Below are positions 25,558-44,329 of a DNA stretch of 64,000 nt, one piece after another. The DNA comes from Leptospiraceae bacterium. GTDB lineage: Bacteria > Spirochaetota > Leptospiria > Leptospirales > Leptonemataceae. Numbering within the stretch: position 1 is the first letter of the stretch; every line of letters starts with the position of its first letter. The notes beneath the pieces are model-generated. The model saw nothing but the letters and a program-made list of their open reading frames with translations. It was not told where the DNA came from and did no database searches. Where the stretch lies: assembly GCA_026005135.1 (NCBI GenBank), contig BPKM01000003.1:62001-126000 (forward strand), read 5' to 3'. A program made the position numbers and the translations under genes.

Positions 25558-27132
25558 ATGACAATACAATTACAGGAAAATCAAGATATAAATATCAATA
25601 CTAATATAGAAGCAGAAGAAGAAATTTTAGATGGTTATTCTGCTGAAGAATTATTTTCCACCTATGAAGGTTTAACTTATAAAGATTTTTTAGTATTACC
25701 AGGATATATAGATTTTAGTCCTAATGATGTTAATTTAGAAACATATTTAACAAGAAATATTAAAATTCAAAGACCATTAATTTCATCACCAATGGATACT
25801 GTAACAGAAGATCAAATGGCAATAGCTTTAGCATTACTTGGTGGTATAGGTATAATTCATTATAATAATACACCAGAAGAACAGGCAGAAATGGTTAGAA
25901 AAGTAAAACGATTTAAAAATGGATTTATTGTTGATCCTATTGTATTATCTCCAGATCATACGATTGCTGATGTTTATGAAATAAAAGAGAAGTATGGTTT
26001 TTCTGGTATTCCCATAACAGAAGATGGTACAAGAAATGGAAAATTAATTGGTATCGTTACTAATAGAGATATTGATTTAGAAAAAGATCTTTCTATTAAG
26101 TTAAAAGATGTAATGACAACAGATTTAATTACTGCACCTGAAGGATTATCCTTAACAGAAGCAAATGAAATTTTAAAAAAATCAAAAAAAGGAAAATTGC
26201 CAATTGTTAATAGTAAAGGGCAACTTGTGGCATTAATCTGTCGAAGTGATATTAAAAAACATAGAGAATATCCTTATGCTTCCAAAGATGCAAATAAACG
26301 TTTGATGGTTGGAGCGGCAATTTCTACCAGACCAGAATCAAAGGATAGACTTGCTTTGCTTGTAGAAGCAGGTGTTGATGTTGTGGTTATAGATTCAGCT
26401 CAGGGAAATTCTATTTATCAAATTGAAATGATCAAATATATCAAAAAACATTATCCAGAAATTGATGTTATAGCTGGTAATGTAGTTACACAAGAGCAAT
26501 GTTATAATTTAATTAAAGCAGGTGCTGATGCATTAAGAATAGGAATGGGACCAGGTTCTATTTGTATTACACAAGATACAATGGCAGTTGGTAGAGCACA
26601 GGCAACAGCTGTATATAAAACAGCAAAATTTGCAAGAAAATACGGAATACCCGTAATAGCAGATGGAGGTATATCCAATATAGGAGATATTGCTATTGCT
26701 TTAGCAATTGGGGCATCAACTACAATGATGGGATCTTTATTTGCTGGTACACACGAAGCACCAGGAGAATATTTTTACGAAAATGGTGTACGATTAAAGC
26801 GATATAGAGGTATGGCTTCTTTAGAAGCTATGAAGGCCGGTGGAGCAAAACGATATTTCTCTGATGATCAAGAAATTAAAGTTGCTCAGGGGGTATCTGG
26901 AGCAGTTGTTGATAAAGGTTCTATGTTTCAATTTGTTCCTTATCTTATTCAGGGATTAAAACAAAGTTTTCAAGATATGGGTGTAAGATCTATACCAGAA
27001 TTACATGAAAAAATGTATTCTGGTAAACTACGTTTTGAGCGTAGAACATTAAGTGCACAGGCACAGGGAACAGTACATGGATTATATAGTTTTACTTATC
27101 CAGTATTTGGTGCTTCTGATCCAAAAAAATAA
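25558..27132 (+). CDS. guaB: Inosine-5'-monophosphate dehydrogenase
   Basis: GuaB oxidises IMP to XMP with NAD+, the committing step to guanine nucleotides. An excellent AGGAGGT site precedes ATG 25558. The 524-residue protein carries the barrel start [18 protein letters not shown], two CBS domains in about residues 125-245 (including [13 protein letters not shown] and [21 protein letters not shown]), VIDSAQGNS, and the catalytic loop [11 protein letters not shown] with active-site Cys near 336. [16 protein letters not shown] and the mobile flap follow. It is full length and appears functional. The IscU/pentapeptide fusion gene follows 23 bp downstream and may be cotranscribed. Confidence 0.97.
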
Positions 27133-27155
27133 TTTTAATATCTAAGGATAGAAAA

Positions 27156-27935
27156 ATGGATTTTGAAAAATTTAAAAAAATCAATGATGAACGTCCTAAT
27201 TATGGAGAAATAGAAGATGCAGATGTTGTTTCTTTTTATAGAAATAGTGGTTGTGGAGATGGCTATCGCATTTTTTTAAAAATTAAAGAAGAAAATAACA
27301 GTAAAATTATAGAAAATGCAACTTTTACAACAACAGGTTGTGGATTTAGTATTACTGCACTTGCAATGGGAATAGAATGGATAAAAGGTAAATCCCTTGA
27401 AGAAGCAGAAAATATCACAGTAGCAGATATAGAATCTTTATTTTTATTCCCAGAAAGGAGAAAAAACTATCCTCAGTCTGCTATAGCTGCTATAAAAAAA
27501 GCCATAAATGATTATAAAAAAGGTATAAAATGTGACTATTTAACAAAAAAAAGAGTATTAGAAAAATTAAAAATAAATGGTCATTTAAGGAATGAAAACT
27601 TACAACAGGTTATGTTAGATAATGAAGATTTGTCTAATGTAGATTTTAGTGGTGCTAATTTACAGAATGCATTCTTACAAAGTGCAAATTTAGAAAATGC
27701 TAATTTTGAAGGTGCTAATTTAAGAGGTGCCTATTTAAATATGGCAAATTTAAAGAATGCTAATTTTCGAAATGCAGATTTACGATTTGCTAAATTAATA
27801 GGAGCAAACATAGAAGGAGCTATTTTTGAGAATGCTATATATGATATCGGTACAAGATTAGATCCCAAACAGATTCATATCTTTAAAGTTATGAAAAAAG
27901 CAGATAAAGGATTTATAGAATTAAAAACTGTTTAA
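27156..27935 (+). CDS. IscU/NifU-N-like domain fused to pentapeptide repeats
   Basis: Residues 1-130 follow the IscU scaffold: NSGCGDGYRIFLKI (first Cys), FTTTGCGFSITALAMGIEWIKGKSLEEA (second Cys) and SAIAAIKKAINDYKKG. The third cluster ligand, normally in an HC motif before the last helix, is absent here (RKNYPQSAI), so cluster assembly may be altered. Residues about 150-240 are right-handed pentapeptide repeats (A(N/D)LxxAxF: SGANLQNAFLQSANLENANF and on). The fusion of an iron-sulfur scaffold with a repeat helix is unusual to me. The repeat part may dimerise or mimic a nucleic acid surface. Function unknown; operon position after guaB is suggestive only. Confidence 0.75.
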   Translation: MDFEKFKKINDERPNYGEIEDADVVSFYRNSGCGDGYRIFLKIKEENNSKIIENATFTTTGCGFSITALAMGIEWIKGKSLEEAENITVADIESLFLFPERRKNYPQSAIAAIKKAINDYKKGIKCDYLTKKRVLEKLKINGHLRNENLQQVMLDNEDLSNVDFSGANLQNAFLQSANLENANFEGANLRGAYLNMANLKNANFRNADLRFAKLIGANIEGAIFENAIYDIGTRLDPKQIHIFKVMKKADKGFIELKTV

Positions 27936-28003
27936 AAAATATATATTTTAAAAATTTCAAAAAAATAATTGATAAAAAAAATCAATTTATTAAAACGATA
28001 TTT

Positions 28004-28204
28004 ATGAAGCATAAAAAAGGTGAACAAAAAATTCTACGTAAACCTACCTTTTTATATAAAGGAGTATTTGTTTTTCAGAATTCACCTGTTATTGTAAAAG
28101 ATATTATTCAAACAAAAAATGAAGTTTATTATATTGTTGAATATATTGATAAAGAAGGAAATAAAATGCTTATAGAAAACATTAAAGAAGAAGAATTAGA
28201 ATAA
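28004..28204 (+). CDS. Small basic protein of unknown function
   Basis: A 66-residue protein with no signal peptide. It has a basic N-terminus (MKHKKGEQKILRKP) and a beta-rich remainder (FLYKGVFVFQNSPVIVKDI, EVYYIVEYIDKEGNKMLIENI), which could be a small SH3-like or KOW-like barrel. Its stop is one base before the start of the STAS gene, so the two are cotranscribed and probably coupled. I recognise no family. Confidence 0.55.
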   Translation: MKHKKGEQKILRKPTFLYKGVFVFQNSPVIVKDIIQTKNEVYYIVEYIDKEGNKMLIENIKEEELE

Positions 28205-28205
28205 T

Positions 28206-28571
28206 ATGTTAAAAGAAGTTTTAACAACAAATCATATTATTTATTTTCTTATAGAAGAAAATATAAAAATGGAAAATGCCCCGATTTTTTATGATGAATT
28301 TATAAAAAGTAATGATTATTTAGGGAAAAAAGTTTTTTTTGATTTTTCTAAAATCAATTTTATAGATAGTTCTGGTATTGGTATTTTAATTCGTTGTGCT
28401 GATTATTTAAGAGAACGTTCTTCAGAATTAATATTTGTTAGTGTAAATAAGTCTATGAATACAGTATTTCGTCTTGCTGGTTTAAATCAATTTTTTTATA
28501 TTATAGAAAAAGAAGAATTAAATCAATATTTAAAAAAAGAGGAGTTAGAAAAGGTTGCATCTAACCGATAA
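28206..28571 (+). CDS. STAS-domain protein (anti-sigma factor antagonist type)
   Basis: The 121-residue protein is essentially a single STAS domain. VFFDFSKINFIDSSGIGILIRCADYLRERSSELIFVSVN holds the DSSG motif with the Ser that is phosphorylated in SpoIIAA/RsbV proteins, and NTVFRLAGLNQFFYI completes the fold. It should bind an anti-sigma kinase when unphosphorylated. No kinase partner is adjacent; the SpoIIE-type phosphatase at 37864-39957 is a possible opponent elsewhere in the window. The latter link is inference. Confidence 0.88.
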   Translation: MLKEVLTTNHIIYFLIEENIKMENAPIFYDEFIKSNDYLGKKVFFDFSKINFIDSSGIGILIRCADYLRERSSELIFVSVNKSMNTVFRLAGLNQFFYIIEKEELNQYLKKEELEKVASNR

Positions 28572-28578
28572 TAAATAT

Positions 28579-29371
28579 ATGAAACATTTATATATTTCCT
28601 TTTTAATTTTATTTATTTTAAGTTGTTCTTCTGGTTTTTATAAAAAAGAAAGAATTTATCTTTCTGATAATATAGCACTATATCTAATAGATGAAAATGA
28701 TTATCCAGAAGAAGAAATTAAACAATATTTAAATCCAGTACAAAAATTTCCAGATAATGCAATAGAAAATATAAGTCTTGTATTAGCTAATTTAGAAGTA
28801 GAAAAAGAAGGCATTTTTAGTAAGGATATCTTATCCTCTTGTTTATCCTTTACAATTAGAACAAATTCAAAATATTTTAAAAGAAATTATTCCTAAGGTA
28901 CCTGCTGGAAAACGCATATTAATAGTTCAGAAATTTGATCCTTTTAGAACAGTACTAAGTAAAGAAAAACGTTCTACAATGTTAATCTGGTATGATGCTG
29001 ATGGTTATAATATTGTTTTTGGAGAAATTCATGAAGATTTATTACCAGATAATTTTGCAACAGAAACGGATTGGTTAGATATTTTTCCTGTTTCTTTAAA
29101 ACAGGGTAATCCAGATCAAAAAATCATAAAAACAGAATTTATAGAATATAAAAAAATAGGAGATTTTGTTCATTACAGTTGGATTGTATTTCAAGATAAA
29201 AATATTGAGACTTTAAAAAATGAATTAACTAGTAAAGAAAATTCTTCACAAAGCGAAAAATCTTCATCTATAGAGGAACGTTTAAAAAAATTACAGGATT
29301 TATATAATAAAAAACTTATAACCAAAGAAGAATACGAACAAAGAAAAAAAGCTATTTTAGAGGAATTATAA
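28579..29371 (+). pseudogene. SHOCT-domain lipoprotein gene with one frameshift
   Basis: ATG 28579 opens a lipoprotein leader (LILFILSCSSGFYKKE) and runs to residue about 83 (EKEGIFSKD). A frameshift near 28827 then moves coding to the next frame, which continues ISYPLVYPLQLEQIQNILKEIIPKVPAGKRILIVQKFDPF, IWYDADGYNIVFGEIHEDLL, and ends in the SHOCT motif EERLKKLQDLYNKKLITKEEYEQRKKAILEEL. The two halves give a coherent protein of about 264 residues. The unframed first piece ends at 28896 and the second opens at 28979 with an internal ATG. Either a pseudogene or a sequencing error. Eight bases separate it from the STAS gene. Confidence 0.72.
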
Positions 29372-36998: not shown

Positions 36999-37877
36999 TT
37001 ATTTATTTTTAAAAGCATATAAAACAAAAGAACTTGTTAAAGCAAAGTTTTTATAAGCAACTTTACTTAAAAAATGATACAAAGAAGCGCGAATATATTT
37101 ATAATAATATTTTGGACTATCAATAAAACCTTTCATTTTTTTTAACTTAGGTATTAATCCAAAATCAACACCATGGAAGTAAATCAATTGCTTAAAACCA
37201 TATTCTTTTAAGTGTTTAGTAAGATTACTTTTGGAATAATAGAATAAATGACCTGGTAAATAATAATGGTAGTTTTCTTTTTGTAGTTTTGCCTGTAAGC
37301 CATCAAAATTTGCTGTTTGGATAATTAATAATCCCTCTTCATTTAATAAATCATATAGTTTTTTAAATACCTTTTGTGGTTCTGGTAAGTGTTCTAATAC
37401 TTCAATTAATGTAATAATATCATATTTTTTTGTAGGATTAAAATCTAAAATATGATTTTGAAATACTCTATTTTTTAATACTGGATCTTTTTTGCATTCT
37501 TGAATAGCATAAGATGATATATCTATACCTTCTGCATCATATCCATATTTGATGGCAGATTTAATAAAACCACCAAAACTACATCCAATATCAAGAAATC
37601 GTGCTGGTGGTAGTTTATATTTTTTGATTGTCTTTAATCGTGCATTCCATACATATTCACAATATTTATAATATTTACGTTCATCGAAATAATTATAATT
37701 TGCAGTTCCATCAAAATATTCTTTTGTATAATATTTATAAGGATCAGATGTATTTTGCATTTGTAGTTTGCATATAGGACACTGGAATATCTCTAATGGT
37801 TCTTCAAATCGATTGATTGTATATAAATACTGGCACTTTAGTTTACAAAAAGGACAAATCATATTATATTGTTTCAA
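36999..37877 (-). CDS. SAM-dependent methyltransferase with N-terminal zinc ribbon
   Basis: The N-terminal 45 residues hold CPFCKLKCQYL and CPICKLQM, a probable four-Cys zinc ribbon. A class I SAM fold follows, with LDIGCSFGGFIKSAIKYGYDAEGIDISSYAI (motif I and acidic loop), YDIITLIEVLEHLPEPQKVFKKLYDLLNEEGLLIIQTANF and a C-terminal extension with PGHLFYYSKSNLTKHLKEYGF. This matches Methyltransf_12/23-type sugar or lipid modifiers often found in surface-polysaccharide clusters, but the substrate is unknown. It overlaps the upstream signalling gene by 14 nt. Confidence 0.83.
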   Translation of the reverse strand: MKQYNMICPFCKLKCQYLYTINRFEEPLEIFQCPICKLQMQNTSDPYKYYTKEYFDGTANYNYFDERKYYKYCEYVWNARLKTIKKYKLPPARFLDIGCSFGGFIKSAIKYGYDAEGIDISSYAIQECKKDPVLKNRVFQNHILDFNPTKKYDIITLIEVLEHLPEPQKVFKKLYDLLNEEGLLIIQTANFDGLQAKLQKENYHYYLPGHLFYYSKSNLTKHLKEYGFKQLIYFHGVDFGLIPKLKKMKGFIDSPKYYYKYIRASLYHFLSKVAYKNFALTSSFVLYAFKNK

Positions 37878-39957
37878 TTTCCTCTTCTAAAGTTTTATAA
37901 TTATTTCCGTCTTTAGGATCCTCATAAATTAATCCTTGTTTTTTTCCTAATAAAATTGTCTGTCTTTGGATAATTCTATTTACTCTATCTAAATATATTT
38001 TAATTTTATTGGTTTCTTTTAATTTTAGAGAATCTTCCCAGTATTTTTTAGCATTCTGATAATTCTTTAAATTGTAATAAGCTATACCAATTAACTTTAA
38101 TAAAGTGGGATCTTTTGAATTTATTTTATATGCTCTTAATAAATATTTTAAAGCTTTTAAATTACGATTTAGATTAATAAAGCATAATCCTCGGTAGAAT
38201 AAAATATCAAAGGGTTGAATTTCTGAAGGTCCTTCCATTAATTCCAGGGCTTTTTCATAGTTTTTTTGTTTTATATAACTTTTTATTTTTAAACGATAGA
38301 TTTCATGATTCGTTATAAGCTGTTTTTTAAGATTATAATTTTTTTCTTTAAAAGAAATTCTCATGATAGAAATATCATCGGTTTGTTCACCAATTGTAAA
38401 AATGTCATTAATTATTTCTTTAAGATTTCCGTTATTTCTTTCAATAATTTTTAAGAATAATGTATAATCATCATTAAATTTTTTTTCTTCTGAGTTAAAT
38501 AATAATAAATCATCTTTACCGTCACTACCTATAAAAATTACATCATTTTCTTGAAATATAAATTTTTGAATTTTTAACGGAAATTCAGAAGGAAAGCCTA
38601 ATTTTCTTAATGTTAGCTCTTTTTCGATAAAATGTGACTTTTTATTTCTAAATAAAATTACAAAAGGATGTTCTGCATTGAAATAATACATTGTTTTTTC
38701 ATCAGTATCAATAACACCTAATACACCTGATATCATCATACTTCCATTAAAGGATAAAAAAATATTTTGAATTTCATTATATATTATATGTAAGAATTCT
38801 TCCGGATTTTTAATAAAATCAAAGTTTCGGAATGTAAGAGAATTTAAAATCGTACCCATTACTATACTACCACTGGCTCCCTGAATGGATTTACCCATAG
38901 CATCTCCATTAAAAAATAAAATATAATTTTTGTTGTTGATTGTAATATTATCAGAAAAACATATATCACCACCAATTTGATTATGTTTATTTTTAAATAA
39001 AAACGATTTTTTTTGAATACATACAAAATCTATATGAAAGTCTTTACTTTTTGCTTTATTTACAATTAAAGGCTGAATTAATAATGAAGTCAAAAAGTAA
39101 TCTCCATCTTGATGTCTTTTTAAGGTTTTGATTTCCTGTAAAGATGTTTCGAATTCCTTTTTAAAATGATTTAATTTTTGTATGGTTGTTGTTAAGTCTT
39201 CAGAATATTGTTTCTCTATGTATAATCCACATTCCATTTCTTTCATTTTGTCTATCAATGGTTTAATGAATTCTTTTTTTATTATAGAACCATGTTGTGG
39301 TGCAATAAGTTCAATGTCTAATTTTTCTATTTTTCTTAAAGCATAATTTAAGATATCTTTTGATGGCATATATGCCATATGAAAACCTTCAATGTGTTTA
39401 AAATAATTTTCATCGGCAAAAAACTCCCAGCTTTCTTCTAAACCACCGAATAAATCACCAGAAAAAAGAACTTTGGTTTGAATATCATAAGTAACAAATG
39501 CACCCGGTGAATGACAATAAGGAGTAGTATAAAATTTTAATAAATATCCATTAATATTTAATTCAAAATTTTCTACATCGATTTTATAATAAGATGATTT
39601 TGTTCCATAATGTTTTATCAAAAAAGTCATCCTGCTATGAGTAACAATAGTCAATTCTTCTCTGTCTATAATTTCTTCAAGATAAGGTACAGCTGCACAA
39701 AGATCTGGATCTTGATGATGTAAAATTATATATCGAATATTTTTTATGGAGCTAATTTGATTAACTTTATTTATAATTGTTTCTATTTCCATCATTGAAC
39801 CAGGATCTATAAGAATAGAATTTTTTCCCAAATCTATAAAATATGGATGGCACTGAAAAGGATCATTTTCTAGATAGGAACCAACCCAATACGTATTTTT
39901 AGCAATTTGAATAGCTTTTCGAAAATCAATATTTGTAGTTGAATTTGAATTTTGCAT
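37864..39957 (-). CDS. MBL-fold plus SpoIIE-type PP2C phosphatase plus TPR signalling protein
   Basis: Three domains are visible in 697 residues. Residues 1-245 are a metallo-beta-lactamase fold of the flavodiiron/ODP type: DLGKNSILIDPGS, HHQDPDLCAAVPYLE (HxxxD variant of HxHxDH), CHSPGAFVTYD, FSGDLFGG and APQHGSII. Residues about 300-515 are a SpoIIE/PP2C phosphatase: GGDICFSDNI, NGDAMGKSIQGASGS and SDGKDDLLLF with metal-binding Asp residues, and a final EQTDDISIMRI. Residues 550-690 are TPR-like (YEKALELM and ALKYLLRAYKINSKDPTLLKLIGIAYYNLKNYQNAKKYWEDSL). It may sense oxygen or NO through a di-iron site and dephosphorylate a STAS-type antagonist; that is inference. Confidence 0.83.
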   Translation of the reverse strand: MQNSNSTTNIDFRKAIQIAKNTYWVGSYLENDPFQCHPYFIDLGKNSILIDPGSMMEIETIINKVNQISSIKNIRYIILHHQDPDLCAAVPYLEEIIDREELTIVTHSRMTFLIKHYGTKSSYYKIDVENFELNINGYLLKFYTTPYCHSPGAFVTYDIQTKVLFSGDLFGGLEESWEFFADENYFKHIEGFHMAYMPSKDILNYALRKIEKLDIELIAPQHGSIIKKEFIKPLIDKMKEMECGLYIEKQYSEDLTTTIQKLNHFKKEFETSLQEIKTLKRHQDGDYFLTSLLIQPLIVNKAKSKDFHIDFVCIQKKSFLFKNKHNQIGGDICFSDNITINNKNYILFFNGDAMGKSIQGASGSIVMGTILNSLTFRNFDFIKNPEEFLHIIYNEIQNIFLSFNGSMMISGVLGVIDTDEKTMYYFNAEHPFVILFRNKKSHFIEKELTLRKLGFPSEFPLKIQKFIFQENDVIFIGSDGKDDLLLFNSEEKKFNDDYTLFLKIIERNNGNLKEIINDIFTIGEQTDDISIMRISFKEKNYNLKKQLITNHEIYRLKIKSYIKQKNYEKALELMEGPSEIQPFDILFYRGLCFINLNRNLKALKYLLRAYKINSKDPTLLKLIGIAYYNLKNYQNAKKYWEDSLKLKETNKIKIYLDRVNRIIQRQTILLGKKQGLIYEDPKDGNNYKTLEEEIETI

Positions 39958-40010: not shown

Positions 40011-40637
40011 TTAAAGTATTAGATTTTTTTTACAACTAAAAAAATAATGGGCAATTTTTTGTTTTAGATTACCAATTGGTGTTCGTTCCATATAACCTAA
40101 TTGAATATTTTTAAAATATTTATTCAGTTCTTTATAAATATCATTTTCATCAAAGAAATAAATTTCGGAATCTTTAATTTCAGAATTTTTAAAATGGGTA
40201 TCTTGTTTTGCGCGATATGTTCCAATAAAAAATCCATCAGGTTTTAGTATTCGATAAAATTCTTTTAATAAAAAATTTCGAATATCTTCAGAATTATAAT
40301 GTAAGACACCCCAACAAATTATAGCATCAAAGTAATTATCTTTAAAGGGAAGTGGTGTATTAATTTCGTAAAATAAAAATTGAATTTCTGGATATCTTTT
40401 TTGGTTATTTTTTATAACCTCATAAGAAAAATCAATTCCATAGAGTTCTGGTATTTTTTTTTCTTTTAAGTATAGTAGATGTCTGCCAGTTCCACAACCA
40501 AAATCAAGAGTTCTTTTCCATTCATTTACATTTAGTTTTTCTATAATACGTACTAAATTTTCGTCTGGATATTTTAATACTTTATTTTTTGATTTATAAT
40601 AATTATCCCATACGTTCTGATTATGAAAAACAGCCAT
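40011..40637 (-). CDS. SAM-dependent methyltransferase
   Basis: The 208-residue protein begins NVWDNYYKSKNKVLKYPDENLVRIIEKL and contains TLDFGCGTGRHLLYLKEKKIPELYGIDFSYEVI (motif I and ribose-binding acid), FDAIICWGVLHYNSEDIRNFLLKEFYRILKPDGFFIGTYRA (motifs II-III). This is a standard Methyltransf_11-type small-molecule or polar-lipid methyltransferase; the acceptor is unknown. It lies between the signalling gene and pstB on the same strand, 16 bp downstream of pstB, and may be read through from the pst operon. Confidence 0.82.
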   Translation of the reverse strand: MAVFHNQNVWDNYYKSKNKVLKYPDENLVRIIEKLNVNEWKRTLDFGCGTGRHLLYLKEKKIPELYGIDFSYEVIKNNQKRYPEIQFLFYEINTPLPFKDNYFDAIICWGVLHYNSEDIRNFLLKEFYRILKPDGFFIGTYRAKQDTHFKNSEIKDSEIYFFDENDIYKELNKYFKNIQLGYMERTPIGNLKQKIAHYFFSCKKNLIL

Positions 40638-40653: not shown

Positions 40654-41454
40654 TTAACCAAATCGTCCTGTTATATAATCTTCTGTTATTTTTTGTGATG
40701 GATTTGTAAATATTTTAAAGGTTGAATCATATTCAATTAATTTACCTTGATAGAATAATGCTGTAAAATCACCAATTCTTGCTGCCTGTTGCATATTATG
40801 TGTTACTATTATGATTGTATAATATTCTTTTAATTCTAAAATTAATTCTTCTATTTTATTTGTAGATATTGGATCTAAACTTGCTGTTGGTTCGTCCATT
40901 AATAAGACTTCTGGTTGCATTGCTATAGCACGCGCTATACATAAACGTTGTTGTTGTCCTCCAGATAAGGAATATGCACTTTCCTGTAATTTATCTTTTA
41001 CTTCGTCCCATAGGTATGCTTTTGATAAAGCTTCGTATACTAATTCATCTAAATCTCCTATATATCCATTAATTTTAGGTCCAAGTGCAATATTATCATA
41101 AATAGATTTTGGGAAAGGATTGGGTTGTTGAAAAACCATACCAACGCGTAAACGTATCTCTACGGGATCAATCTTCGGATCATAAATATCCTGACCATCT
41201 AATAAAACCTTTCCTTCGATACGAAATTCTTCGATAAAGTCATTCATTCGATTAAGTGTTCTTAAAAAAGTACTTTTACCACAACCAGATGGACCAATTA
41301 AGGCAGTAATTCTATTTTGATAAATATCCATTGTAAGATCAGATATTGCTTTAAAATCACCATAAAATAAATTTACATTTCTTATTTCGAATTTTGCTTT
41401 TAAGTCTTCTTGATTTTGATCCGTTTGATTGGTTTGAATTTTAATTTCTTTCAT
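40654..41454 (-). CDS. pstB: Phosphate ABC transporter ATP-binding protein
   Basis: The 266-residue ATPase drives phosphate import through PstC-PstA. Walker A is [21 protein letters not shown], the Q-loop [18 protein letters not shown], the ABC signature [16 protein letters not shown], Walker [12 protein letters not shown] and the switch His in [20 protein letters not shown] and the NRMND segment are diagnostic of PstB. A short N-terminal extension ([10 protein letters not shown]) precedes the core. Last of the four pst genes. Confidence 0.97.
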
Positions 41455-41466
41455 AAGTATTCCTTT

Positions 41467-42351
41467 TTATTCGACTTTTTTCAACTTTCTCTGAAAGTAA
41501 ATACGAAGATAAATTGCAAAAGAGTTCATAAGTAGTAATGCAACTAATAATACAATAATACCTGCTGCTGCTAAATTATGGAATCCTTCCTGAGGAAGGG
41601 ATGTCCAATTAAAAATCTGAATTGGAATAACAGTAAAACTATCCATTATACTGGAAGGAACAGTTGCAACATAAGTTAATGCACCAATCATAATTAAAGG
41701 AGCAGTTTCTCCAATAGCACGAGATAAAGCTAAGATAATACCTGTTAGAATACCTGGCATAGCAATAGGTAAAATTTGATAACGTACAACCTGCCAACGC
41801 GTCATACCTATACCATATCCAGCATAACGAAAAGAGTCTGGTACTGCACGTAACGCTTCCTGTGTTGCAATTGTTATAGTAGGCAATATTAAAAGAGACA
41901 TTGTTAAAGCACCTGCTAATAAACTTCTTCCTAATTCTAATCCTCTAACAAATAATGTTAATCCTAAGATTCCATAAATAATTGAAGGAACACCAGCTAA
42001 ATTTTGAATATTCAATTTTATTAAATGAATGATTTTACTACTTTTACTACTATATTCTTCTAAATAAATGGCAGCAAACACACCCATTATAATAGAAAAA
42101 AAGGCTGTTAATATCATCAACCAGAATGTTCCAGCTATAGCAGGAAAAATTCCAGACTTTTCGGGAAATCGAGAAGGAGGGTTTAATAAAAAATCTTTAC
42201 TTAGATAAGGCAAACCTTTTATAGTTAGAGAAAAAAGTAAATAAAATAATAAAAAAATTACAAGAATATTGGCTACAAGACACAAAATCTGAAAAATTGT
42301 TCCATAAATATAATATTTTTTGTATAATTGAAAATCTGGTCGAAATGTCAT
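41467..42351 (-). CDS. pstA: Phosphate ABC transporter permease PstA
   Basis: The 294-residue permease has six membrane segments and the EAA-loop-containing binding-protein-dependent transport domain. Visible family features are FPEKSGIFPAIAGTFWLMILTA, YLEEYSSKS, NLAGVPSIIYGILGL, ALTMSLLILPTITIATQEALRAVPDSFRYAGYGIGMTRWQVVRYQILPIAMPGILTG and AIGETAPLIMIG. Its start overlaps the pstC stop by 4 nt, so translation is coupled. Confidence 0.95.
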   Translation of the reverse strand: MTFRPDFQLYKKYYIYGTIFQILCLVANILVIFLLFYLLFSLTIKGLPYLSKDFLLNPPSRFPEKSGIFPAIAGTFWLMILTAFFSIIMGVFAAIYLEEYSSKSSKIIHLIKLNIQNLAGVPSIIYGILGLTLFVRGLELGRSLLAGALTMSLLILPTITIATQEALRAVPDSFRYAGYGIGMTRWQVVRYQILPIAMPGILTGIILALSRAIGETAPLIMIGALTYVATVPSSIMDSFTVIPIQIFNWTSLPQEGFHNLAAAGIIVLLVALLLMNSFAIYLRIYFQRKLKKVE

Positions 42352-43319
42352 TTGTATTCCTCTCTAAATTTTCTAACGATTTGTAATGCAATCCAGTTAA
42401 AAGAAAAAGTAATTATAAACAAGGTTAAACCAATAGCATAAATTGTATAATATTCAATACTTCCTGCTGGAGTATCACCAAGAGAAACTTGTACTATAAA
42501 AGCTGTCATTGTTTGAATGGATTCTAAATAATTAAATCCCATTTTTGGAGAAGCACCAGCTGCTAATGTTACTGCCATGGTTTCTCCAATTGCTCTTGCA
42601 AAAGCTAATATTATAGAAGCAATAATACCAGATAAAGCAGCAGGAATAGTGATTCTTGTAATTACATGAAATTTTGTTAATCCTAAAGCATAGGCACCAT
42701 TTTGTATTTTTTTAGGAACAACACGAATTGCTTCAGATGATAAAGAAGTGATCATAGGAATTAAAGAAATACCAACTACAATAGAAGCAGATAGAGCATT
42801 AAAAATTTCAATCTCTGGAAAAATCTTTTTTAAGATGGGTGTAACAATATCAAGAGCAAAATAGCCATATACTACCGTAGGTATACCTCCCAAGATTTCT
42901 ATAAGTGGTGTTAGGATTTCTCTAATTTGTCTTGTTGCAAATTGTGTTAAGAATATAGCTGTACCAATTCCAAGGGGAATACTGATTACAATTGCTCCTA
43001 AGGCGACCATTAATGTTCCATTAACAAGAGGTAATACCCCTAATTTTTTAGGTTCTCCAAAAGGAGCCCATTCTGTTCCTGTAAAAAATTCTATAATAGA
43101 TGCTTTCTGAAAAAATATTATACCATCTTTTAATAGAACATAAGCAATTCCAATTGTTACAAAAACTGTTAACCAGCCAAAGAACGTTAATATATATTGA
43201 ATGAATATTTCTGAAAATGCTTTAGAAGGTGCCTTCCCATATCGGGAGAACACCTTATCTCTACCTTCGTTAATTGCTTGTGTTAAAATTTTTTTCTGTT
43301 CAGAAGGTAAAACTTCCAT
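42348..43319 (-). CDS. pstC: Phosphate ABC transporter permease PstC
   Basis: The 323-residue permease shows the PstC pattern: FTGTEWAPFGEPKKLGVLPLVNGTLMVALGAIVISIPLGIGTAIFLTQFA, LIEILGGIPTVVYGYFAL, SLIPMITSLSSEAIRVVPKKIQNGAYALGLTKFHVITRITIPAALSGI and FARAIGETMAVTLAAG. An N-terminal tail of about 30 residues before the first helix is longer than in many PstC proteins. Forms the membrane channel with PstA. Confidence 0.95.
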   Translation of the reverse strand: MEVLPSEQKKILTQAINEGRDKVFSRYGKAPSKAFSEIFIQYILTFFGWLTVFVTIGIAYVLLKDGIIFFQKASIIEFFTGTEWAPFGEPKKLGVLPLVNGTLMVALGAIVISIPLGIGTAIFLTQFATRQIREILTPLIEILGGIPTVVYGYFALDIVTPILKKIFPEIEIFNALSASIVVGISLIPMITSLSSEAIRVVPKKIQNGAYALGLTKFHVITRITIPAALSGIIASIILAFARAIGETMAVTLAAGASPKMGFNYLESIQTMTAFIVQVSLGDTPAGSIEYYTIYAIGLTLFIITFSFNWIALQIVRKFREEYK

Positions 43320-43345
43320 AAAAATTATTTCCTCTCAAACTTGAA

Positions 43346-44329
43346 TTATTCTACTGTATATAAATCTTTGATAGAAAAAAACTCACCAGCATGTTTTTCG
43401 TTTTTGGGAGAACCAGTTTTTTCTGCTTGAAAATATTTTTTTAAGATTTCATAATCACTTTTTGGAAAAGGAATATAACCAACTTGTTTTGCTAAGTCGT
43501 AAGCATTATCTAAATAGAAATTAACAAATTCTTTTATACCTGGTTTTTGTAAAGAGGCTTTATTTATATAAATAAATAAAGGTCTTGATAAGGGTATATA
43601 GGTTTGATTCATCACAGTTTCTAAAGTTGGTTCAACAGCTTTTTTTGTATTAGGATTTATGATTGGTATTGCTTTTACAATATTTTTATTTTCTTCAAAG
43701 TATGCTAAACCAAAGAAAGCGATAGCATAAGGATCTTCACTTACTCCTTTTACTAAAACGTTATCATCTTCACTAAAACTTGCATCTGGACGGACACGTT
43801 CATCTTTTCCCAGTATTACCTCTACGAAATAATCATAAGTTCCAGAATCCTGACCAGGAGAAAATACCTTGATTTCTTTATCGGGCCAATTAGGTCGAAC
43901 TTCATTCCATTTTTTTGCTGGATTTTTCTGGTTAAATATTTTATATAATTCTTCTATACTTAATACATCTACAAAATTATTGTTATTACTTACAACAACA
44001 CTTAATCCATCATAAGCAACAGGTAATTCAATAAATTCAATCTTATTTTCTTTACATTTTTGTATTTCTGTTGGTTTGATTTCTCTTGAAGCATCAGAAA
44101 TATCTGTTTCGCCTGCACAGAATTTTTTAAAACCACCTCCTGTACCAGAAATACCAACAGTGACATTATAATCCGAATGAGTTTTCATAAACTCTTCTGC
44201 TACTGCCTGACTAATGGGATAGACAGTACTGGAACCATCAATTACTATATTTTGTCGTTTTTTACCACAATATAGGATTAAACTTGATGTTACTATGGTT
44301 AAAACTAAAAATGTTTTAAATTGTTTCAT
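43346..44329 (-). CDS. pstS: Phosphate-binding lipoprotein PstS
   Basis: The 327-residue periplasmic binding protein has a lipoprotein leader ([18 protein letters not shown], Cys after LY). It has the family phosphate-binding segments [46 protein letters not shown], and [17 protein letters not shown]. These contain the Ser, Asp, Arg and Gly residues that hold phosphate. It is the first gene of the pst operon. A Pho-box-like array lies 58-85 bp upstream. Confidence 0.96.

Follow-up and report, generated by a model that had tools for sequence, protein, structure and literature searches.

The oxygen-binding diiron protein (ODP) has been described as an oxygen sensor in T. denticola chemotaxis (PMC7666581), and in the T. 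maritima ODP a glutamine of motif 5 takes the place of the third histidine of motif 2 (PMC7785958). The inputs named for known SpoIIE-type phosphatases are RsbT-binding, PAS, GAF, REC and HAMP domains; transmission to these phosphatases through coiled coils has been argued, as has the idea that PPM, GGDEF and kinase proteins can swap their input domains (PMC12143880). In the literature searched we found no diiron metallo-β-lactamase (MBL) input to a SpoIIE-type phosphatase, and in the open-licence papers searched no fusion of an ODP to a phosphatase. The parts of the protein described below are known; their combination, as read from sequence, appears new to the open-licence literature that we searched.

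We analysed a gene in a 64,000-nucleotide stretch of DNA (the window) from a Leptospiraceae bacterium, an environmental relative of Leptospira (assembly GCA_026005135.1, contig BPKM01000003.1, positions 62,001 to 126,000 of the forward strand); coordinates are those of the window unless a locus (L) or genome (G) is named. The gene is an intact open reading frame with an ATG start, encoding 697 amino acids, and it is real: its product matches Pfam domains, has full-length orthologues, and is modelled by AlphaFold2, with 73 sequences as input, at a mean pLDDT of 90.7. Judged from profile matches and the model, the domain order is an N-terminal ODP, a long helix, a SpoIIE/RsbU-type PP2C phosphatase and tetratricopeptide repeats (TPRs; Table 1). 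The original prediction had proposed a sensor-effector layout, which is supported by a diiron MBL domain joined to a phosphatase with complete metal ligands; the 43-residue helix between the two is a refinement that it lacked.

Table 1. Features of the fusion gene, its surroundings and the proposed STAS partner, in window coordinates
Feature	Position	Strand	Basis
STAS protein, DSSG serine present	28206..28571	+	PF01740 E 3e-12
SAM methyltransferase (Methyltransf_23), ATG at 37862, one base past phosphatase stop	36999..37862	-	sequence; Pfam
ODP-PP2C-TPR fusion protein	37864..39957	-	intact ORF; Pfam; orthologues in 10 further Leptospiraceae genomes
C-terminal TPR region, residues about 550-673	37939..38310	-	TPR_2 matches; helical pairs in model
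SpoIIE/RsbU-type PP2C domain, residues about 300-536	38350..39060	-	PF07228; Foldseek; invariant Asp
Long linker helix, residues 255-297, predicted coiled coil	39067..39195	-	AlphaFold2; heptad bias
ODP domain, residues 34-223	39289..39858	-	PF19583 E 5e-61; phmmer; Foldseek
Q221-H222 (PQHG), ODP-specific Gln and motif-5 His	39292..39297	-	column check
Predicted bridging ligand D168 (SGD)	39454..39456	-	conserved in all ODP-PP2C rows covering it
Predicted metal ligand H149 (CHSPG)	39511..39513	-	conserved in all ODP-PP2C rows covering it
Metal ligand motif H81-Q-D83-P-D85, then L86, not His	39703..39717	-	ODP-type in all ODP-PP2C proteins covering site
Upstream SAM methyltransferase (Methyltransf_11)	40011..40637	-	Pfam
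pstB, pstA, pstC and pstS-like genes, upstream, same strand	40654..44329	-	ORFs; named from sequence by inspection

The N-terminal domain is, by profile and by predicted fold, a member of the ODP family (PF19583). The Pfam match spans profile positions 1-194 of 194 and scores 206 bits (curated cut-off 27.2). By phmmer, the two solved proteins closest to it, 6qrq (E 3e-24) and 6qnm (E 2e-23), are ODPs, with flavodiiron proteins (FDPs) ranking behind them (E 1e-11 and weaker). Solved ODPs take ranks 1-7 in a Foldseek comparison of the fusion model with the PDB (target-normalised TM-score 0.78-0.83), zinc-loaded and peroxy-diiron ODP entries being among the top matches, and pLDDT is mostly above 90 across the domain. 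The motifs quoted in the original prediction are all present (HHQDPDL at 80, CHSPG at 148, SGDLFGG at 166, PQHG at 220). It had likened the MBL domain to flavodiiron or oxygen-sensing proteins; the signature and the match to solved ODPs uphold a diiron type, but the flavodiiron half of the comparison fell, the domain being an ODP.

We checked the ligand columns in about 65 aligned rows. Every ODP-PP2C row covering the sites conforms to the ODP signature, H-x-D-x-D-[LIV] followed by H, D and Gln-His, and the ligand set of the ODP-PP2C proteins is that of both solved ODPs. All 14 rows with the flavodiiron-type signature (H-x-E-x-D-H, H, D, Ser/Leu/Gly-His) carry HxExDH and none has the Gln, its position being Ser, Leu or Gly in FDPs. 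Three cysteines, Cys36, Cys148 and Cys243 (codons 39850-39852, 39514-39516 and 39229-39231), are conserved across the ODP-PP2C rows covering them, and Cys148, which adjoins the ligand H149, occurs only in the ODP-PP2C clade. In the tree, FDPs split from all ODPs (100/100) and the ODP-PP2C rows form a single clade (100/100). The characterised chemotaxis ODPs have a strongly supported clade of their own, which does not include these rows (branch length 2.0); the row nearest to the ODP-PP2C clade, an ODP-GGDEF protein, is placed there with weak support. The domain does not belong to the chemotaxis ODP subgroup: it is fused to a phosphatase, sits in a separate clade and has no MCP neighbour.

The linker has hydrophobic residues at a fraction of 0.55 of heptad a/d positions, against 0.23 elsewhere. 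The phosphatase assignment of the original prediction held up, with a PF07228 (SpoIIE) match at residues 344-536 (E 2e-22) and all four metal ligands, Asp 331, 352, 479 and 528, invariant in every aligned orthologue and paralogue. By Foldseek its fold best matches the P. aeruginosa RssB phosphatase (3f7a/3f79); phmmer with the phosphatase region alone found no match among PDB sequences, so the kinship is read from Pfam and fold. A C-terminal TPR, likewise anticipated, was recovered as a TPR_2 match at about residues 619-650 (E 6e-11). The SpoIIE-TPR paralogues annotated in this genome, which has about 30 SpoIIE-type matches, and in its relatives have HAMP or 7TMR-DISM inputs instead of an ODP, which makes the SpoIIE-TPR body a lineage-wide output onto which the ODP was placed as an input. 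Among near-full orthologues the ODP part is 67-77% identical, against 47-69% for the phosphatase part.

The ODP-PP2C-TPR architecture occurs in half of the Leptospiraceae genomes (11 of 22, from 5 of 13 genera), with 54-71% identity between this protein and full-length orthologues in other members of the family. In two of the 11 (G003, L001:7974-10068; G011, L040:5262-7389) the gene is in two frames, which may reflect recent decay or an assembly error. A PF19583 search of 393 Spirochaetota genomes, with examination of those long ODP proteins that were retrieved, found no ODP-PP2C fusion outside the family. Plasmid records searched beyond Spirochaetota did contain MBL/ODP-like matches; Fusobacteria ZRK30, a cold-seep isolate, carries ODP-like MBL genes on three plasmids (CP102406, CP102407 and CP102408), about 37% identical to the ODP domain studied here.

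The other long ODP proteins examined in those 393 genomes are fusions to GGDEF, GGDEF-REC or a class III cyclase, or are FDP-like. Stand-alone spirochaete ODPs adjoin MCP-like proteins, Hpt/HATPase kinases, CheX or a class III cyclase; those at L112 (G024), L113-L114 (G019, G009) and L117 (G073), for example, lie next to a class III cyclase, or to Hpt-HATPase kinases with CheX and receiver proteins. That a single type of input, ODP, is paired with several outputs argues circumstantially, and in our view strongly, for a sensor role, and suggests that ODP is a portable input module across Spirochaetota signalling outputs. Several metal ligands are lost in some ODP-GGDEF and ODP-cyclase fusions (L103, L104, L105 and L107, in G196, G321, G362 and G258). 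Metal is therefore not essential to every ODP-type input, and part of the ODP family, going by these sequences, may sense without a diiron site.

The pair of methyltransferase genes flanks the fusion gene in G002, G003 and G008 as well, and the resulting trio is held in two genera, g1 and that of G008; in the other genera the neighbours are unrelated. The pst genes keep the same order in G002 and G003 (genus g1) and are not beside the fusion gene in G008 or in other genera. We draw no functional link to the flanking methyltransferases, the downstream one being present, unlinked, in genomes that lack the fusion; the pst linkage is limited to genus g1. In one genome (G001, L159:2720-3478) the orthologue of the downstream methyltransferase adjoins a plain PP2C (PF00481) gene, not the fusion. 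No STAS or anti-sigma gene was found beside the fusion gene in any relative examined, nor, in these relatives, are a STAS substrate and an anti-sigma kinase encoded with the phosphatase; the components lie elsewhere in the genome.

We propose that the fusion is probably a soluble one-component sensor of O2 (or of Fe or redox state) that switches a phosphatase dephosphorylating a phospho-STAS protein. The N-terminal ODP would bind O2 at a non-heme diiron site, as in chemotaxis ODPs; the change would be relayed through the C-terminal helix of the ODP and the 43-residue coiled-coil helix, switching the activity of a dimeric SpoIIE/RsbU-type PP2C; and the phosphatase would then remove the phosphate from a phospho-STAS (anti-sigma-antagonist) protein, a partner that the TPR repeats would choose or hold in place as a scaffold. 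Oxygen or redox gating of the phosphatase is plausible by homology; iron loading, O2 binding, the direction of the switch, dimerisation, and the STAS substrate and its identity are what we infer for this fusion. The genome encodes a COX1-type oxidase, which makes O2 a physiologically relevant signal.

Three other readings of the MBL domain can be weighed against an oxygen sensor. It might be a flavodiiron oxidase, degraded or working, that reduces O2 or NO, with the phosphatase as a by-stander output, and there is weak similarity to flavorubredoxin models and FDP structures; but Pfam finds no flavodoxin domain in the 697-aa protein, all ODP-PP2C rows carry the ODP signature, and FDPs form their own fully supported clade. 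Ligands, missing flavodoxin and tree together led us to reject a flavodiiron identity, and we consider such an oxidase very improbable. Slightly less credible again is an MBL-superfamily zinc hydrolase with a small molecule as its substrate, the fusion coupling a metabolite to the phosphatase: the protein does match PF00753, but the hydrolase motif HxHxDH is missing, HxDxD-L being found instead, and the nearest solved relatives are ODPs. We take more seriously, though still as unlikely, the idea that the site of the ODP domain detects something other than O2, be it Fe(II) availability, NO, peroxide or the thiol redox state of Cys36, Cys148 and Cys243, with O2 secondary. The position of the ODP-PP2C clade outside the characterised chemotaxis ODPs means that the bound ligand could differ, the title of a reference listed in PMC10653840 calls the T. 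denticola ODP an Fe[II] and oxygen sensor, and the conservation of the three cysteines, with Cys148 confined to this clade, points the same way; however, the domain retains the same complete set of diiron ligands as O2-binding ODPs, and we noticed no CxxC or other thiol-switch pattern. An oxygen-sensing ODP remains our preferred reading.

The partner of the phosphatase is a separate matter. The original prediction had named the STAS protein at 28206-28571 as a possible substrate, and its dedication to the fusion phosphatase would fit its location on the same contig and its DSSG serine. A single-sequence model of the protein (pLDDT 69) contributed no further evidence, and neither did a search of viral folds. 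We nevertheless find it improbable as the specific partner, since the gene belongs to an order-wide locus, is unlinked to the fusion gene and is retained in genomes without it. The block at 25558-29371, comprising genes for IMPDH, an IscU-like/pentapeptide protein, a 66-aa protein, the STAS protein and a lipoprotein, is recognisable through Leptospiraceae and in two genomes of an outgroup family, genomes lacking the fusion included, and in other carriers the STAS orthologue lies 34 kb from the fusion gene (G002), about 510 kb from it (G008) or on a separate contig (G003). We found no case of the STAS gene lost with the fusion kept; the STAS gene is universal in the family, which makes its co-occurrence with the fusion uninformative. 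The genome moreover offers competitors on both sides, with the roughly 30 SpoIIE-type matches already mentioned and ten STAS matches besides this one (11 in all), one of them directly next to an RsbW-like kinase. A STAS gene and RsbW-like kinase of the same genome, with a TetR-type gene upstream (L146:1483-2259; G000:C2:227151-227870) form the most canonical partner-switching pair that we saw here. Directly after the STAS block of G001, a genome without the fusion, comes a phosphatase of this kind, HAMP-SpoIIE-TPR (L157:4100-5854), an arrangement seen only there among the genomes examined; the STAS orthologue may thus be a substrate of the SpoIIE-TPR phosphatase class.

ODP has so far been studied as an oxygen sensor of chemotaxis, and its fusions to a phosphatase, to diguanylate cyclases and to class III cyclases suggest a transferable oxygen-sensing part; relatives of Leptospira would have the same oxygen sensor steering several quite different outputs. 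These proteins provide a natural test for input swapping via helical linkers among phosphatase, GGDEF and kinase outputs. Leptospira-like bacteria have many orphan SpoIIE phosphatases, and the present protein gives a concrete candidate input for one of them. More tentatively, and as a proposal that we hold nearly as likely to be right as wrong, ODP may be a general, exchangeable cytoplasmic oxygen input in spirochaetes, attached through helical linkers to phosphatase, c-di-GMP and cyclic-nucleotide outputs; in this fusion a non-heme diiron O2 site would then directly control a serine phosphatase, the first such case known, and would link oxygen to partner switching without heme.

The closest known systems each share a part of this arrangement. 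T. denticola TDE2498 and the T. maritima ODP (6qnm, 6qrq, 6qwo, 6r9n) belong to the same Pfam family, have the same fold and ligand signature, Gln included, and work in signalling contexts; these characterised ODPs, however, are stand-alone proteins of about 250 aa that act on MCP/CheA arrays, whereas here an ODP from another branch of the family is fused to a phosphatase. Flavodiiron proteins (ROO, FprA, flavorubredoxin) have the diiron MBL fold in common with it, but their HxExDH motif, flavodoxin domain and enzymatic reduction of O2 or NO do not apply to the fusion. Phosphatases of the RsbU/SpoIIE/RsbP type, such as B. subtilis RsbU and P. aeruginosa RssB, share the SpoIIE domain, the metal-binding Asp residues, an N-terminal input and a helical linker; unlike them, the Leptospirales SpoIIE paralogues characteristically bear C-terminal TPRs. 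In the O2-sensing stressosome of Vibrio, oxygen likewise feeds a STAS-based pathway (PMC4976288, PMC9237108), but there it does so through RsbR, a heme globin within a multi-protein stressosome, whereas here a diiron domain is fused directly to the phosphatase.
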